Below are positions 6,001 through 15,173 of a stretch of DNA of 64,000 nucleotides, piece after piece. Under the pieces are notes generated by a model that saw only the letters and a list, made by a program, of their open reading frames with translations, did no database searches and was not told the origin of the DNA. A program made the translations under genes and the position numbers. Positions within the stretch are counted from its first letter, which is position 1, and each line of letters starts with the position of its first letter. This stretch comes from Roseobacter sp. GAI101 (GTDB taxonomy: Bacteria; Pseudomonadota; Alphaproteobacteria; Rhodobacterales; Rhodobacteraceae), in the NCBI RefSeq assembly GCF_000156335.1, contig NZ_DS999213.1:2654929-2718928 (forward strand), given 5' to 3'.

Positions 6001-6833
6001 CAGCGCAACGCCGCCGCGCGGGTGGCGCGATCAACTTGGGGTCGGGTACCAAACCACCTCTCGAAACCCGGCACCGCCTGGTGCAGCAACATGCCAAGAC
6101 CATCGACGGTGGTGCACCCCGCCTCTTCGGCTGTCTCAAGAAGCTTTGTTTTCAGCGGGGCATAGACCAGATCGGTCACGACCATCGACGGCCGCAACCC
6201 GTCCAGCGGCACGCGCAACGCCGGTTTGCCGATCATCCCGAGCGATGTGGTGTTCACGACCAGCGCCGCGTGGTCCAGCATATTGCCGGCCTTCACCCAG
6301 TCATAGACAGTCACACGGCCGCCAAACACCGATTTCAGCCGATCCGCCCGGACACGCGTGCGGTTGGACAGCAGGATTTCCGGTACACCTGCATCCAAAA
6401 GCGACGCAATTACGGCACGCGCAGCGCCACCTGCACCTAGAACGGCGGCAGGTCCGTCCGCCGGAACCCACGACGGTGCGCCAGCGCGCAGGTTTTCGAT
6501 GAACCCGTAGCCGTCAGTATTATCTGCCATGATCTTTCCGTCAGCGCGAAAGGTCAGCGTGTTTACCGCCCCGATCAGAGCCGCGCGGTCAGTAATGACA
6601 TCGACCATTTCCATCACCGCCTCTTTATGCGGGATCGTGATGTTCGCCCCGACAAAGCCCATCTTGGGGAGGGTCCGGAGAACCTGCTCCAGATCTTCGG
6701 GCGCGACATCCATCGGAATGTAAGCCCCTTGAATCCCGAGGGTGCTCAGCCAATGCCCGTGTATCTGAGGGGATTTCGAATGTGCAATCGGGGATCCGAT
6801 TACGGCGGCAAGCGGTATCTTGGGCAAGCTCAT
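6000..6833 (-). CDS. aroE: shikimate dehydrogenase
   Basis: 277 residues. AroE reduces 3-dehydroshikimate to shikimate with NADPH in the aromatic amino acid pathway. The substrate-binding IAHSKSPQIH is near residue 16, the catalytic Lys lies in NITIPHKEAV (about residue 68), the catalytic Asp is in ADNTDGYGF, and the Rossmann loop GAGGAARA is near 130. Length is typical. It overlaps maf by four bases (ATGA) and coaE by one. Confidence 0.97.
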   Translation of the reverse strand: MSLPKIPLAAVIGSPIAHSKSPQIHGHWLSTLGIQGAYIPMDVAPEDLEQVLRTLPKMGFVGANITIPHKEAVMEMVDVITDRAALIGAVNTLTFRADGKIMADNTDGYGFIENLRAGAPSWVPADGPAAVLGAGGAARAVIASLLDAGVPEILLSNRTRVRADRLKSVFGGRVTVYDWVKAGNMLDHAALVVNTTSLGMIGKPALRVPLDGLRPSMVVTDLVYAPLKTKLLETAEEAGCTTVDGLGMLLHQAVPGFERWFGTRPQVDRATRAAALR

Positions 6834-7429
6834 GCGGTCAAATCCCCCCGGAGCGTCAAATAGTTAAGCAGTTCCAACAGCGGCAACCCTAAGACATTAA
6901 AGTAATCGCCTTCAATACTGCTGAACAGCCTGACGCCTTCTTCCTCCAGCTTATAGGCCCCGACGGCATGCTGGATGCTGTCCCAGTTGCGCGCCACGTA
7001 ATCCGCGATATAGGCGTAAGAGGCATCGCGCATCCGCAAACGCACCTGACCAATGTGCCGCCAGATCGGTTTGCCATTTTCCACGATGACTGCAGCAGAA
7101 AGCAGGCTGTGGCGATCCCCGCGCAGGGCGGTAAGCTGGGCAATCGCATCCTCGGGCGTCGCGGGCTTGGAGAAAAGGCTGCCACGATGATCCAGAACCT
7201 GATCACAACCCAACACCAGGGCACCGGGATTCTTGTCACTGACCTTGCGGGCCTTCATCTCGGCCAAGGTATCGGCGACGTCGCGCGACGCGGCACCGTC
7301 CGAAATCAGTGCTGTCTTAATCATTTCTTCGTCAATTCGCGCGACGCTGATCTCGTGGGCGACATTTGCCTGCCGCAGCAACTGCGTTCTGATGCTTGAG
7401 CCTGAGGCAAGGATAAGCGTTTGGGCCAT
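6830..7429 (-). CDS. maf: Maf family nucleotide pyrophosphatase
   Basis: 199 residues. Maf proteins hydrolyse non-canonical nucleoside triphosphates and are linked to septum inhibition. The start matches the family signature (LASGSSIRTQLL), with ARIDEE and the LGCDQVLD motif holding the catalytic Asp further on. It is the first gene left of the origin gap. Its start codon overlaps a DnaA-box-like sequence (7429-7437), and another box-like sequence lies inside its first codons (7409-7417), so the origin may extend slightly into the gene. Confidence 0.95.
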   Translation of the reverse strand: MAQTLILASGSSIRTQLLRQANVAHEISVARIDEEMIKTALISDGAASRDVADTLAEMKARKVSDKNPGALVLGCDQVLDHRGSLFSKPATPEDAIAQLTALRGDRHSLLSAAVIVENGKPIWRHIGQVRLRMRDASYAYIADYVARNWDSIQHAVGAYKLEEEGVRLFSSIEGDYFNVLGLPLLELLNYLTLRGDLTA

Positions 7430-7832
7430 GTTGATAACCTGTGTGTGAAGTTAGGAAGTTTTTAGGGACTTATCCCTCAGATTGCGAGAGTTGCCGTCGG
7501 TCTTTGGAAAAATCGTATTCTTCGCGCCAAGTTTCGCGAATTATACTGCGAGGGATAAGGATAAAGCTGTAGCACCCTGAAAACAGATAACCCTAGACTT
7601 ATCCACACAGTTATCATGTCTAAATATTCTCTGGATTCTCATTAAAGCATTGATATTTTTAATTAAAGTTAGTAGGTGATTTAGTTGTCACCGTCACCCT
7701 TCGTTTATCACACACAGGTGGATAAGCCCGCGCATATCTCATTAATCCACAGAAATTGGCTACCCTACTTACATCATCATCTTTCTTCTCTTCTTATTTA
7801 TTATAGAAGGATCACACCGAACGGAGCACGAC
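7409..7832. other. candidate chromosomal replication origin (oriC)
   Basis: This 400-base gap is the longest truly non-coding stretch and is clearly AT-richer than its flanks. It holds one perfect DnaA box TTATCCACA (7599-7607, plus), one-mismatch boxes TTATCCACC (7717-7725, minus), TAATCCACA (7743-7751, plus) and TTATCAACA (7429-7437, minus), and an inverted pair of TTATCCCTC (7470-7478 plus, 7550-7558 minus). An AT-rich tract at about 7611-7690 is a candidate unwinding element. A GANTC methylation site lies at 7634-7638 and a TTCGCG...CGCGAA inverted repeat at 7521-7540. Genes diverge from here on both sides and parAB with parS lie 3-6 kb away. The call is inferred from motifs and context. 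Confidence 0.8.
7599..7607 (+). promoter_or_regulatory. consensus DnaA box TTATCCACA
   Basis: An exact match to the bacterial DnaA-binding consensus, next to the AT-rich tract of the origin gap. Weaker boxes surround it on both strands. That DnaA occupies it is an inference. Confidence 0.75.
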
Positions 7833-8282
7833 ATGTCTGACATTCTGGCCCTCGCCTATCCTTGGACGAAGTCGATCCATATCATGGCCGTTATTTCGTG
7901 GATGGCGGCGCTGTTCTATCTGCCGCGGCTTCTGGTTCATCATACGGAACGGGTGGGCCTGGCCGGGGAAACCCACGAGCTGTTCGCGATGATGGAATAC
8001 AAACTGTCAAAGGTGATCATGCGCCCTGCGATGATCGCCACGTGGATCTTCGGGCTTTGCCTGGTGTTCACCCCCGGGATCGTCGATTGGTCGATGGTGT
8101 GGCCCTGGACCAAGGCTGCGGGGGTGATTGCAATGACAGGGTTCCATGAATGGCTGTCCGCGCGTGTCAAAGGCTTTGCTGCGGGCCAAAACAGTCTGAC
8201 AGGCCGCCAGTACCGGATGATGAACGAAGTGCCGACGGTGCTGATGATCCTGATCGTGCTGTCCGTCGTGGTGAAATTCTAA
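7833..8282 (+). CDS. hemJ: protoporphyrinogen oxidase HemJ (CopD/UPF0093 family)
   Basis: 149 residues with four predicted membrane helices. HemJ oxidises protoporphyrinogen IX to protoporphyrin IX in the inner membrane of bacteria lacking HemY/HemG. Conserved features are the helix-1 histidine in SIHIMAVISWMA, RLLVHH, and WFxKxA-like segments with the conserved Lys in WTKAAGV. A GGAG ribosome site precedes the ATG. It is the first gene right of the origin. The later haem genes hemW and hemH also lie in this window. Confidence 0.92.
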   Translation: MSDILALAYPWTKSIHIMAVISWMAALFYLPRLLVHHTERVGLAGETHELFAMMEYKLSKVIMRPAMIATWIFGLCLVFTPGIVDWSMVWPWTKAAGVIAMTGFHEWLSARVKGFAAGQNSLTGRQYRMMNEVPTVLMILIVLSVVVKF

Positions 8283-11001: not shown

Positions 11002-12873
11002 GTGTTTCACGTGAAACATTTTGACGTCATCGTTATTGGAGGCGGCCATGCAGGTGCCGAAGCCGCCCACGCCGCAGCGCGTATGGGCGTGGCTACCGCT
11101 CTTGTCACCATGTCGCGAGACGGAATCGGAGTGATGTCTTGTAATCCTGCAATCGGTGGGTTGGGCAAGGGCCACCTTGTTCGCGAGATTGATGCGATGG
11201 ACGGCGTCATGGGACGGGTCGCCGATAAGGCAGGTATCCAATTCAGGTTGCTTAACCGTCGGAAAGGCCCGGCAGTGCAGGGGCCGCGCACGCAAGCGGA
11301 TCGAAAGATTTATCGCACCGAAATGCTCTTGGAAACGGAGCGGCAGGAAAACTTAACTATTATTGAGGGCGAAGTCGTCGATTTCATGATGCAGGGTGAA
11401 GCTGTGTCCGGAGTTGTGCTGGCTGACCAATCAGAGGTTTTTGCGAAAGCAGTGATCCTGACCACTGGGACTTTTCTTCGCGGCGTGATACATATCGGGG
11501 ATGTCTCCAGGTCCGGTGGCCGGATGGGGGATAAAGCTTCGGTCAAGCTCGCCGAGCGGATCGATTCCTTTAATCTGCCGCTCGGCCGATTGAAAACGGG
11601 AACACCACCACGGTTGGATGGGCGGACCATTGACTGGGCCAAACTTGAATCGCAACCCGGTGATGAAGAGCCAACGCTTTTCTCGTTTCTGTCGACCGCC
11701 CCAACGGCAAAGCAGATATCGTGCGGAATAACGCATACAAATGAAAAGACCCACGACATCATTCGCGAAAACCTGTCGCGGTCAGCGATGTATGGTGGTC
11801 ATATCGAAGGTGTCGGCCCCCGATACTGCCCATCTATCGAAGATAAAGTCGTGCGGTTTTCTGATAAGACCTCGCATCAAGTGTTTCTAGAGCCCGAGGG
11901 GGTGGATGATCATACGATCTATCCAAACGGCATCTCTACATCACTCCCTGAAGATGTTCAGCTTGCTTATGTGCGATCAATGGAAGGCCTTGAAAACGTT
12001 GAGATTCTTCAGCCGGGATACGCGATTGAATACGACTATGTAGATCCTCGGGCGCTTGATCTGACGTTGAAGGTAAGATCGGTTCCAGGCTTGTATTTGG
12101 CTGGACAAATCAACGGCACGACGGGATACGAGGAGGCTGCTGGCCAAGGATTGGTTGCCGGGCTTAATGCTGCATTGGCGTCTCAAGGGAAGGATCCCGT
12201 CATTTTCAGCCGATCGCAAAGTTACATCGGCGTGATGATAGATGATTTGACGACACGGGGCGTTACCGAGCCATATCGCATGTTTACGTCACGCGCGGAG
12301 TTTCGGCTTTCCCTACGGGCTGACAATGCGGATCAGCGGTTGACGCCACTTGCTATTGAACTTGGATGCACTACCACCACACGCGCTGAAGTTTTTTCGG
12401 AGAAAATGAAACGATTGAAGGAAGCGACAGACCTGTTGCAGAGCGACAAGTTTTCTCCGAAAGTTATTGAGGAATCCGGCATCAAGATTAATCAAGATGG
12501 GTCTAAACGTACGGGCTTCCAGTTGTTGTCTTTTCCCGACGTAAAGTTTGAAGACCTGATACCGTTGGATCCAAGACTTGAGGCCGTTGACGAGGAAACG
12601 AGGCGGCAAGTGGAGCGTGATGCACTTTACGCGAATTACATTGCGCGGCAGCAGCGTGATATTGATGTGTTGCAAAAGGATGAAGCACATTTGATACCGG
12701 ATGGCTTTGATTATGCGCCGATTGATGGATTGTCCAACGAACTTAAGTCAAAGTTGATCAGAGTTAGGCCAACAAACCTGGCGCAGGCAGCGCGAATAGA
12801 TGGTATGACACCGTCTGCACTGACGCTGTTGCTATCCCATCTGAAGCGCGATGCGCGAAAGAAATCAGCGTGA
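11002..12873 (+). CDS. mnmG: tRNA uridine-5-carboxymethylaminomethyl modification enzyme MnmG (GidA)
   Basis: 623 residues. This FAD- and NADH-dependent partner of MnmE acts on tRNA wobble U34. The dinucleotide-binding motif [12 protein letters not shown] is at residues 10-21, and family signatures [16 protein letters not shown]-like and [10 protein letters not shown] (about 190) follow. The GTG start at 11002 is part of a perfect parS site, which encodes the first residues MFHVKH; the next possible start, GTG at 11011, would begin inside parS. The stop overlaps the rsmG start by four bases. Confidence 0.97.
11003..11018 (+). promoter_or_regulatory. parS centromere site 1 (within mnmG start)
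   Basis: TGTTTCACGTGAAACA, a perfect 16-bp palindrome identical to the general bacterial parS consensus bound by ParB. It covers the second base of the mnmG GTG start codon through codon 6. parAB lie 2.5 kb downstream. Confidence 0.95.
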
Positions 12874-13478
12874 TCGATAATTTGGACGACTATGTTTCAC
12901 GTGAAACATCCGAGAAGCTCGGTCAGTTTGCGCAGCTTGTTGAAAAATGGACTGCAAAAATAAACCTAATTTCAAAGTCGAGCATCCCGAATATGTGGGA
13001 ACGTCATATCCAAGACTCATTACAGCTTTATCAGCACGCGCCAATCGGAAGGCACTGGGTTGATCTGGGAAGTGGGGGTGGCTTTCCAGCCATCGTTCTT
13101 GCGCTTATGTCGCAGCAAGATGGCCGGTCTACGAAATTTACTTTGGTGGAAAGCGATCAGCGAAAATGCGCGTTCCTTCGAACGGCTATACGTGAACTGG
13201 GTATAGATGCCTCCGTAATCAATGACCGGATCGAGAAAATCGAACCACTAGAGGCAGATGTCTTGTCTGCTCGGGCACTCGCTGACCTGAAAGCTCTCTT
13301 GGGGTTTGCCGACTTGCACCTGGCAAAGAACGGTGTCGCCGTATTTCCCAAAGGGTCAAATTGGAAGGCCGAGGAAGTCGACGCCAGAGTGGCTTGGCAT
13401 TTTGAGTGCGATCCAATACCTAGCCAAACAGACCCATCCGCCGCCGTGCTCAGGATCAAGGAAATCTCGCATGTCTGA
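12870..13478 (+). CDS. rsmG: 16S rRNA m7G527 methyltransferase RsmG (GidB)
   Basis: 202 residues. RsmG methylates G527 (E. coli numbering) of 16S rRNA using SAM. The SAM-binding motif [16 protein letters not shown] lies at about residues 57-72, followed by [13 protein letters not shown]. The start is GTG in a GTGA overlap with the mnmG stop. Residues 8-13 (YVSRET) are encoded by the second parS site. Its end overlaps parA by 8 bases. Confidence 0.96.
12893..12908 (+). promoter_or_regulatory. parS centromere site 2 (within rsmG)
   Basis: A second perfect copy of TGTTTCACGTGAAACA, 1890 bases from the first. It is read in a different frame than at mnmG, giving VSRET near the RsmG N-terminus. 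ParB spreading from these two sites would cover the parAB genes. Confidence 0.95.
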
Positions 13479-14271
13479 TCTGTCGCGCCCCTCCGGGCCA
13501 AAGATTATCGCCGTTGCAAACCAGAAGGGCGGCGTCGGTAAAACGACGACGACGATAAACCTTGCTGCCGCGCTGGTTGAAATGGACCATCGGGTTCTTG
13601 TTGTCGACCTGGATCCCCAAGGGAACGCGTCAACGGGGCTTGGAATTGAACTTGAGGATCGAGAGTTCACGACTTATGAGCTTCTTTTGGAGGATGTGGC
13701 GCTAGATCAGGTGATTTTGACCACACAGACAGAAGGTCTGCACATCGTTCCTGCTACCGTTGATCTTAGCTCCGCTGATCTTGAGCTGATTTCGAACGAA
13801 AAGCGCAGTTTTCTATTGCATGATGCGCTTCGCCAGACGCAGATGGATGGCTATGCATTCGACTATATATTGATTGATTGCCCGCCATCTCTCAACCTGT
13901 TGACGGTCAACGCGATGATTGCCGCGCATTCCGTGCTGGTGCCGTTGCAAAGTGAATTCTTCGCACTCGAAGGTCTGTCGCAGTTGATGTTGACAATTCG
14001 TGAGGTGCGGCAAAGCGGTAACAAGGATCTGCGGATCGAGGGCATTGTGCTGACCATGTACGATCAGCGCAACAATCTGTCGCAACAGGTCGAACAGGAC
14101 GCACGCAGCAACTTGGGCGAATTGGTCTACAAAACAGTAATTCCACGAAACGTCCGTGTCAGCGAAGCACCCAGTTTTGCGATGCCGGTGCTGAGCTATG
14201 ATACCGGGTCGAAGGGTGCCAAGGCATACCGGGAACTCGCCAAGGAAATCTTGGTAAATAGTGTGATTTAA
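13471..14271 (+). CDS. parA: chromosome partitioning ATPase ParA
   Basis: 266 residues from the ATG at 13471. ParA is a deviant-Walker ATPase that binds DNA nonspecifically and drives origin segregation with ParB-parS. The motif KGGVGKTTTTINLA is at about residues 20-33, with VVDLDPQGNAS and the LIDCPPSL Walker B further on. The start overlaps rsmG by 8 bases. Earlier in-frame starts from 13306 lie wholly within rsmG and lack ParA similarity. Confidence 0.97.
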   Translation: MSDLSRPSGPKIIAVANQKGGVGKTTTTINLAAALVEMDHRVLVVDLDPQGNASTGLGIELEDREFTTYELLLEDVALDQVILTTQTEGLHIVPATVDLSSADLELISNEKRSFLLHDALRQTQMDGYAFDYILIDCPPSLNLLTVNAMIAAHSVLVPLQSEFFALEGLSQLMLTIREVRQSGNKDLRIEGIVLTMYDQRNNLSQQVEQDARSNLGELVYKTVIPRNVRVSEAPSFAMPVLSYDTGSKGAKAYRELAKEILVNSVI

Positions 14272-14285
14272 GGGGGTATTAAACT

Positions 14286-15173
14286 ATGGCAGAGAGAGAC
14301 AAACGTCGGGGCCTTGGGCGCGGACTTTCGGCTTTGATGGCCGATGTTGCGGAAACGCAGACGGTAACCGAGAAAGGGTCAGCTGAGCAGTATGTTCCGA
14401 TCGAGCAGATTTCGCCGAACCCCGAGCAGCCGCGAAAGCGTTTTGACCCTGAGGATTTGAACGATCTTGCCAATTCAATCCGGGAAAAGGGCGTCATCCA
14501 ACCCTTGATCGTGCGCCGTCGCGAAGACGGATCGTTTGAGATTGTTGCTGGCGAACGCCGCTGGCGCGCCTCACAAATGGCGCAACTTCACCAGCTTCCG
14601 GTCATTATTCGTGAATTTACTGACGTCGAGGTGTTGGAAGTCGCCATCATCGAAAATATTCAGCGCGCGGATTTGAACTCTGTCGAAGAGGCTGCTGGAT
14701 ACCGTCAATTGATGGATCGCTTTGGACATACTCAAGAAAAAATGGCCGAAGCCCTGGGGAAAAGCAGAAGCCACATCGCGAATCTTTTGCGTCTTTTGAA
14801 CCTGCCCGAGACGGTTCTTGAGATGGTTCGCAAAGGTGATTTGTCCGCCGGTCATGCCCGCACTTTGGTGACGGCAGATGATCCGTTGAAATTGGCCAAC
14901 CAGATTATTGCAGGCGGCTTGTCGGTTCGTGCAGCAGAGGCATTGGTTAAGAAGGCGCAGGCGGGGGATGCGGAAACACCTGTCAGAAAAGTGCGTTCTT
15001 CGGCTGAGGAAAAAGACGCTGACACCCGTGCGCTTGAGGGAGATTTGTCAGCAAATCTTGGGCTTAAAGTGACGCTGAATCATAAGCCAGGACAGGAAGC
15101 GGGCCAAATGGTTCTGACCTACAAGACGATGGAGGAGTTGGACGAAATTTGCCGGCTCTTGTCCGCTCACTAA
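14286..15173 (+). CDS. parB: chromosome partitioning protein ParB
   Basis: 295 residues. ParB is the CTP-dependent clamp that loads at parS and spreads. The N-terminal RGLGRGLSALM box is ParA-interacting and typical. The ParB/Srx domain includes NPEQPRKRFD and the CTP-binding GERRWRA motif (about 80-88). The helix-turn-helix that reads parS includes KSRSHIANLLRLLNLP (about 158), followed by the C-terminal dimerisation domain. It follows parA by 14 bases and its stop overlaps the convergent hemW end. Confidence 0.97.
   Translation: MAERDKRRGLGRGLSALMADVAETQTVTEKGSAEQYVPIEQISPNPEQPRKRFDPEDLNDLANSIREKGVIQPLIVRRREDGSFEIVAGERRWRASQMAQLHQLPVIIREFTDVEVLEVAIIENIQRADLNSVEEAAGYRQLMDRFGHTQEKMAEALGKSRSHIANLLRLLNLPETVLEMVRKGDLSAGHARTLVTADDPLKLANQIIAGGLSVRAAEALVKKAQAGDAETPVRKVRSSAEEKDADTRALEGDLSANLGLKVTLNHKPGQEAGQMVLTYKTMEELDEICRLLSAH

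Follow-up and report, generated by a model that had tools for sequence, protein, structure and literature searches.

A shared DnaA-box layout in the maf–hemJ intergenic region, the probable chromosomal replication origin of Roseobacter sp. GAI101

Where does replication of the main chromosome of Roseobacter sp. GAI101 begin, and how is that site organised inside? The genome of this strain comprises 4.52 Mb in nine contigs, and the stretch of DNA analysed here, a window of 64,000 nucleotides, corresponds to positions 2,654,929–2,718,928 of contig C9 (3,794,933 bases). An earlier note on this window had proposed an origin in the non-coding gap at window positions 7430–7832 (C9:2,662,358–2,662,760), which separates maf (6830–7429, minus strand; identified by profile search) from hemJ (7833–8282, plus strand). 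The latter matches TIGR00701 with 124.6 bits, below the cut-off of 138.05, and PF03653 above its cut-off. The genes are ordered secB, dnaQ, coaE, aroE, maf, the gap, hemJ, rho, mnmE, mnmG, rsmG, parA and parB. We infer from sequence that this gap is very probably the DnaA-dependent oriC of the main chromosome. It combines a chromosome-scale skew reversal, a cluster of DnaA boxes beyond chance expectation and an element of low stability with the proximity of parS and parAB, a usual although not universal companion of origins, and its length is similar in relatives.

GC skew was sampled in 44 stretches plus the window, together covering about 19% of the 3.79-Mb contig. The sign changes at about 2.66 Mb, the position of the gap: all samples from 0.99 to 2.66 Mb are negative, and from 2.66 Mb round to 0.54 Mb all are positive except one (−0.004 at 3.51 Mb), with mixed values between 0.63 and 0.90 Mb. 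The best breaks of a two-step fit fall at 2.66 Mb and 0.55–0.56 Mb. A skew minimum elsewhere on the replicon, which the earlier note had named as the observation that would speak against its proposal, is not seen at chromosome scale. Locally the agreement is less precise, since the cumulative skew over the 100 kb around the gap forms a broad, flat valley whose bottom lies 14.6 kb left of it. Together with a conserved block within about 90 bp of hemJ, this local minimum could be taken to mean that the gap is a divergent maf/hemJ promoter region with DnaA-regulated transcription, and that replication starts elsewhere nearby. We regard this as very improbable: skew reversal, parS and the box cluster coincide at the gap, and the 20 kb left of the window, where the local minimum falls, contain no perfect DnaA box and no two boxes within 330 bp. 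The neighbourhood of dnaA was also considered as the origin and rejected; dnaA lies 118 kb away, a distance that lends no support to the gap either, and no perfect box occurs between the gap and C9:2,980,775. The DnaA family PF00308 has five further matches on C6 and C9, all with identical 36-bit scores, which look like copies of one mobile element encoding what we take to be an IstB-type ATPase.

When as many as two mismatches to the parS consensus were allowed, a search of the whole genome gave exactly two places, both perfect, and the reversed control gave none. They lie 3.2 and 5.1 kb right of the gap, the first (TGTTTCACGTGAAACA, 11003–11018) in the first codons of mnmG, which begins with GTG, and the second (12893–12908) in the start of the rsmG ORF. 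Further on follow parA (13306–14271, plus strand; PF13614 from residue 66 and related ATPase families), whose ORF is listed from a TTG and probably has a later true start, and parB (14286–15173, plus strand; PF02195, PF17762 and PF23552). The mnmG ORF opens with GTG-TTT-CAC-GTG-AAA-CAT (11002–11019), so that parS dictates the first residues of MnmG. Among 71 loci of at least 12.1 kb, drawn from the best 80 of 253 HemJ records, 69 contain one or more perfect parS sites and 63 contain two or more; an overlap between parS and a GTG, like that at the mnmG start here, is seen in 56. The argument from synteny made earlier, that maf-aroE-coaE-dnaQ and mnmE-mnmG-rsmG-parAB tend to lie near alphaproteobacterial origins, agrees with the gene order, parS and parAB found here. 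With skew, parS, parAB and synteny all pointing to the same place, the proposal that replication starts in the gap is very probably correct.

The gap contains the boxes that had been reported for it. The perfect box TTATCCACA (7599–7607, plus strand) lies 144 bp left of a one-mismatch box, TAATCCACA (7743–7751, plus strand), about 90 bp before hemJ and hereafter called the hemJ-side box. Two further one-mismatch boxes are TTATCCACC (7717–7725, minus strand), 26 bp left of the hemJ-side box, and TTATCAACA (7429–7437, minus strand), which lies over the maf start codon and uses its A; by this one base the site does extend into the gene, as had been suggested. Of the two box-like sequences placed at the start of maf, that at 7429–7437 holds, while that at 7408–7416 (minus strand, TTATCCTTG, by eye) is a poor match that shares TTATCC alone and has three mismatches over nine bases. 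Tandem half boxes (GGATAAGGATAA on the plus strand) occupy 7552–7564 on the minus strand. A density of four boxes within 330 bp is unmatched in the 666,042 bases sampled from this contig, where the maximum is three, at one place. The window as a whole shows no excess (11 boxes with at most one mismatch against 8.27 expected; 11 or more in 21 of 100 shuffles). Of 13,010 overlapping sample windows of 400 bp, 0.05% attain the A+T content of the gap (0.60). Elsewhere on the contig, three boxes lie within 330 bp at C9:733,606–733,920, in the mixed-skew region that precedes the opposite sign change; two of the three sit at the beginning of an ORF that has no NCBIfam match at E ≤ 1e-10. At C9:406,664–406,748, two perfect boxes and one near-perfect box lie within 90 bp of one another, ahead of an exodeoxyribonuclease III gene, possibly marking a DnaA-regulated gene or a DnaA-titration site.

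At E ≤ 0.001, weak matches counted, HemJ was detected in 37 of 40 genomes of the genus, 59 of 61 of the family and 56 of 61 of the order; these sets overlap and include the genome of this strain. The closest HemJ among the best 80 of 253 listed records, a list from which genomes nearly identical to this one may be absent, belongs to a Sulfitobacter (91% identity). Two sets of loci were compared: the best-scoring 30 from each of the genus, family and order searches (83 distinct loci), and the best 80 of 253; distant members are under-represented, since only best-scoring loci were sampled. The maf gene adjoins hemJ in 79 of the 83 loci of the first set, the other four having no maf match inside the fetched flank and being omitted, and in all 80 loci of the second. 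After removal of 17 gaps identical to another, the 159 gaps yielded 142 distinct ones, that of the window among them. Gap length ranges from 392 to 407 bp in the 30 same-genus loci, from 358 to 480 bp in 49 others and from 359 to 452 bp in the second set (best 80 of 253), and 111 of the 142 distinct gaps measure 395–415 bp. Across the 142 gaps we counted 375 boxes with at most one mismatch, compared with 16 in locally shuffled gaps; most shuffles preserve single-base composition only.

The flanking genes differ from those of the Caulobacter origin, where the earlier note had contrasted hemE with hemJ, and this contrast is borne out: hemE lies 524 kb from the gap in this strain, and PF03618 (COG1806) has no match at E ≤ 0.001 in its 96.5%-complete genome. 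According to the available text of PMC1914354, hemE and COG1806 flank the origins of Caulobacter and Rickettsia. In other families of the class, hemE is found no more than 1.5 kb upstream of hemJ in 26 of 30 loci (those with the best-scoring HemJ). The most economical interpretation has the origin remaining in place while neighbouring genes departed, the difference between hemJ and hemE fitting loss and movement of neighbours.

Conservation within the gap was expressed as mean bits per column over the 30 same-genus loci, with a background median of 0.54. It stands out at three places: the maf-start box, the half boxes at 7552–7564 and a hemJ-side module spanning 7743–7805. The maf-start box reaches 1.80 bits per column, to which the start codon itself contributes, and is present with at most one mismatch in 91 of 142 gaps and in perfect form (TTATCCACA) in 39. 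The half boxes reach 1.47 bits per column, and 12 of the 30 same-genus loci have AAGGATAA letter for letter. Highest of all is the hemJ-side box with the G that follows it (1.96). When picked on bases 3–9 only, this box is found in 110 gaps and is absent by that rule in 32; the count varies with the rule applied (100, 111, 90 and 110 of 142). Its second base is A in 84 of the 110, T in 16 and G, the Caulobacter base, in 10, and is therefore not T in 94; the form TTATCCACA occurs in two. In 76 of 111 gaps a CCCTAC element (here at 7763–7768, plus strand; 1.81 bits over 7763–7769) follows the hemJ-side box at a distance of no more than 25 nt, and TTATT lies downstream in 94 of the 111. The perfect box and the AT-rich tract emphasised by the earlier note are both present, but their sequence conservation is near background (0.67 and 0.53 bits, respectively), as is that of the minus-strand box at 7717 (0.53 as aligned). 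Weighing against the origin reading, this strain has no more than four boxes with at most one mismatch. The layout is also not universal, given that one of the 142 gaps has no box with at most one mismatch and ten have only one. A class-wide signature of the form TDATCCACAG-N8-13-CCTAC was rejected: it matches 4 of 190 genomes (this one, one more of the genus and two of other families), compared with 6 genomes for the reversed control, and this genome has a second match on C6.

The low values at the inner boxes are partly due to their alternating by one turn of the helix. In 90 gaps, minus-strand boxes lie 14 bp (9 gaps) or 25–26 bp (23) left of the hemJ-side box, with 2 elsewhere between 6 and 34 bp. 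Plus-strand boxes lie 46 bp (4) or 57–58 bp (11) to the left, with 4 elsewhere between 38 and 66 bp (54, 55, 59), and far plus-strand boxes 131–135 bp (27) or 140–145 bp (28), with 6 elsewhere between 120 and 156 bp. The paired places are about 11 bp apart, approximately one helical turn. On a quick HemJ plus Maf tree of 65 rows, the 131–135/140–145 state (55 loci) requires at least seven changes and the minus-box state (32 loci) at least two. The two far-box states have overlapping gap lengths, with no 11-bp difference (same genus, 401–407 bp, n = 13, versus 395–404 bp, n = 8), which suggests that the inner boxes are probably gained and lost in situ, not displaced by insertion. As for a correlated shift of two inner boxes, the 22 loci that have both show a mixed pattern and we make no claim.

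An IHF-like site, TATCAATGCTTTA (7643–7655, minus strand), has zero mismatches to WATCAANNNNTTR, which we take to be the IHF consensus. With at most one mismatch, such a site occurs on the minus strand at gap positions 205–222 in 65 of 142 gaps (16 of 30 in the same genus), compared with 3 and 7 at neighbouring places and 10 on the plus strand; the strict form occurs in 15, compared with 0, 0 and 1. The gap of this strain contains no strict TTAA-N7-TTAA CtrA site, and its degenerate CtrA-like site, TTAGGAAGTTTTTAG (7451–7465, plus strand), has two mismatches to that motif. In the relatives, the corresponding place near position 22–23 carries a strict site in 18 of 142 gaps (0, 1, 3, 2 and 0 at five control places) and one with at most one mismatch in 36 (controls 0, 2, 16, 17 and 2); within the genus the counts are 12 and 20 of 30. 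With two mismatches allowed the place no longer stands out (46 of 142; controls 6, 12, 63, 62 and 7, the 63 and 62 coming from AT-rich places), so that the degenerate site of this strain, taken alone, is weak evidence.

Other elements of the gap proved less informative. The single GANTC site starts at 7634 as reported, and GANTC (CcrM) was discarded as a signature, with 184 sites in the 142 gaps against about 218 in shuffles, below expectation. The inverted pair CTTATCCCTC (7469–7478) and GAGGGATAAG (7550–7559) is likewise present, and was set aside as a special element: its left arm TTATCCCTC (7470–7478, plus strand) is weakly conserved (0.85 bits), and its right arm overlaps the conserved half boxes. 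A perfect 12-bp inverted repeat, ACCTGTGTGTGA (7437–7448) and TCACACACAGGT (7708–7719), has each arm adjoining a DnaA box; one gap of the 142 has the two arms in exact form, making the repeat particular to this strain rather than a family feature.

Which part of the gap would be unwound? The AT-rich tract at 7611–7690, 75% A+T as had been noted, contains the least stable 50 bp (7621–7670); of 132,803 windows sampled, 0.003% have a stability this low. A second low-stability valley coincides with ATCATCATC and a T-rich tract at 7773–7805 (plus strand), a candidate unwinding element of 11 successive NTN triplets (NAN on the opposite strand) that begins 21 nt past the hemJ-side box and is conserved at 1.51 bits. 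Mean A+T across 111 gaps has maxima at positions 191–240 and 341–375, the sequence of the central valley being unconserved. The least stable 50 bp starts centrally (150–250) in 64 of these gaps and on the hemJ side (300–375) in 47, and stability alone therefore chooses neither tract. That the central valley is the unwinding element, as the earlier note implied, and the hemJ-side tract merely a hemJ leader, would fit the position of this strain's least stable 50 bp and the larger share of central starts. We nevertheless find it somewhat unlikely, because the central valley shows background sequence conservation and holds the IHF-like site, whereas the hemJ-side tract is conserved and comes directly after the most conserved box. 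In addition, a review describes unwinding elements as lying at the edge of the box cluster and never in its midst (PMC4285127, as far as its available text goes). Conservation and this edge-of-cluster rule favour the hemJ-side tract, which, lying just before hemJ, could also be partly promoter or leader.

If the hemJ-side tract is the unwinding element, it might be a basal unwinding system (BUS) of the standard kind, with DnaA-trios, for which the published rule is a box, a spacer of up to 16 and at least three NAN triplets (PMC8287927, available text). The order of box, CCC-containing spacer and successive NTN triplets, with the NAN run on the opposite strand, resembles such a system, and if the run may start as far as 24 nt away, three or more triplets are present in 91 of 111 gaps (mean 5.5, against 3.2 in shuffles). 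However, in most relatives the run lies about 17–24 nt past the box, beyond the limit of 16 (PMC8287927). Within the published spacer only 18 of 111 gaps have at least three triplets, and the mean of 1.9 falls below that of shuffles (2.6). In this strain two triplets precede the break in phase, one short of the published rule as applied to the hemJ-side box. Moreover, the T–T excess at a lag of four almost equals that at a lag of three, a four-base periodicity that makes the triplet reading insecure. A standard BUS is on this evidence unlikely.

In E. coli oriC, boxes are arranged around an IHF site with the melting tract at one end, and the gap resembles it in having boxes around an IHF-like site and a candidate melting tract at one end; in its orientation towards the adjacent box, the T-rich tract appears to have opposite strand polarity in the two origins. 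Engineered E. coli origins tolerate whole-turn changes in the spacing between boxes and do not tolerate part-turn ones (reviewed in PMC4285127, available text), while the boxes described here alternate by one turn. The Cori of Caulobacter crescentus, as presented in the available parts of PMC1914354, PMC4285127 and PMC4468827, likewise exceeds 400 bp, has boxes altered at the second base (TGATCCACA there, mostly TAATCCACA here) and carries CtrA and IHF sites, to which the CtrA-like and IHF-like sites of these relatives correspond. It differs in its flanks, hemE and COG1806 (PMC1914354) rather than hemJ and maf, and in its five high-affinity CtrA sites as against one degenerate site in this strain. 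Of the Cori-type features, the gap therefore shares the second-base-altered box and lacks both the hemE/COG1806 flanks and a strict CtrA site.

The place itself is not new. An oriC adjoining maf has been described as a conserved trait of Rhodobacteraceae (PMC4793288), and Ori-Finder has located oriC in 101 strains (PMC6699656). These DoriC and Ori-Finder predictions concern the same family and agree with ours in the maf neighbour and in the proximity of parAB and of the GC-disparity minimum; in their available text they give position and predicted boxes, whereas here the inner layout is described. In the openly accessible texts searched, there was no earlier report of a CtrA site or of such a layout in Rhodobacterales origins. 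As far as these searches show, the inner layout is a new addition to a known place.

From these elements a working model can be sketched. DnaA would load on the boxes of the gap, and IHF would bend its centre so that the maf-side and hemJ-side boxes meet in a fixed rotational phase. A DnaA oligomer would then melt the tract at 7773–7805, where the helicase would be loaded. With its altered second base, the hemJ-side box is probably of moderate affinity, as has been described for the G-boxes of Caulobacter. CtrA could act as a competitor near the maf-side box in many relatives, the site being degenerate in this strain.

A more far-reaching version, judged from sequence patterns, treats the Roseobacter-type origin as a DnaA assembly locked in rotational phase. 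Boxes would turn over in evolution almost exclusively in steps of whole helical turns, as measured from a hemJ-side box of moderate affinity. That box would drive a BUS-like tract with an unusually long spacer, and a CtrA site next to the maf-start box would, in much of the genus, let the non-essential, quorum-linked CtrA phosphorelay gate initiation directly. Taken as a whole this is speculative and distinctly doubtful, and the whole-turn precedent from E. coli (PMC4285127, available text) makes its phasing component less novel.

Should the phasing hold, the one-turn shifts of boxes would be a natural evolutionary counterpart of the engineered E. coli origins. The diversity of origin architectures is said to confound the search for shared plans (PMC8287927, in the text available), a problem on which a near-constant gap length combined with inner boxes that switch by one turn has some bearing. 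Loss of the CtrA phosphorelay is described as non-lethal in Rhodobacterales (PMC8116508, available text). For Dinoroseobacter, in which replication changes in a quorum-dependent manner, inhibition of initiation by CtrA~P has been proposed without an origin site being named in the accessible part of that report (PMC6473078), and the CtrA-like site of these relatives could supply the link.
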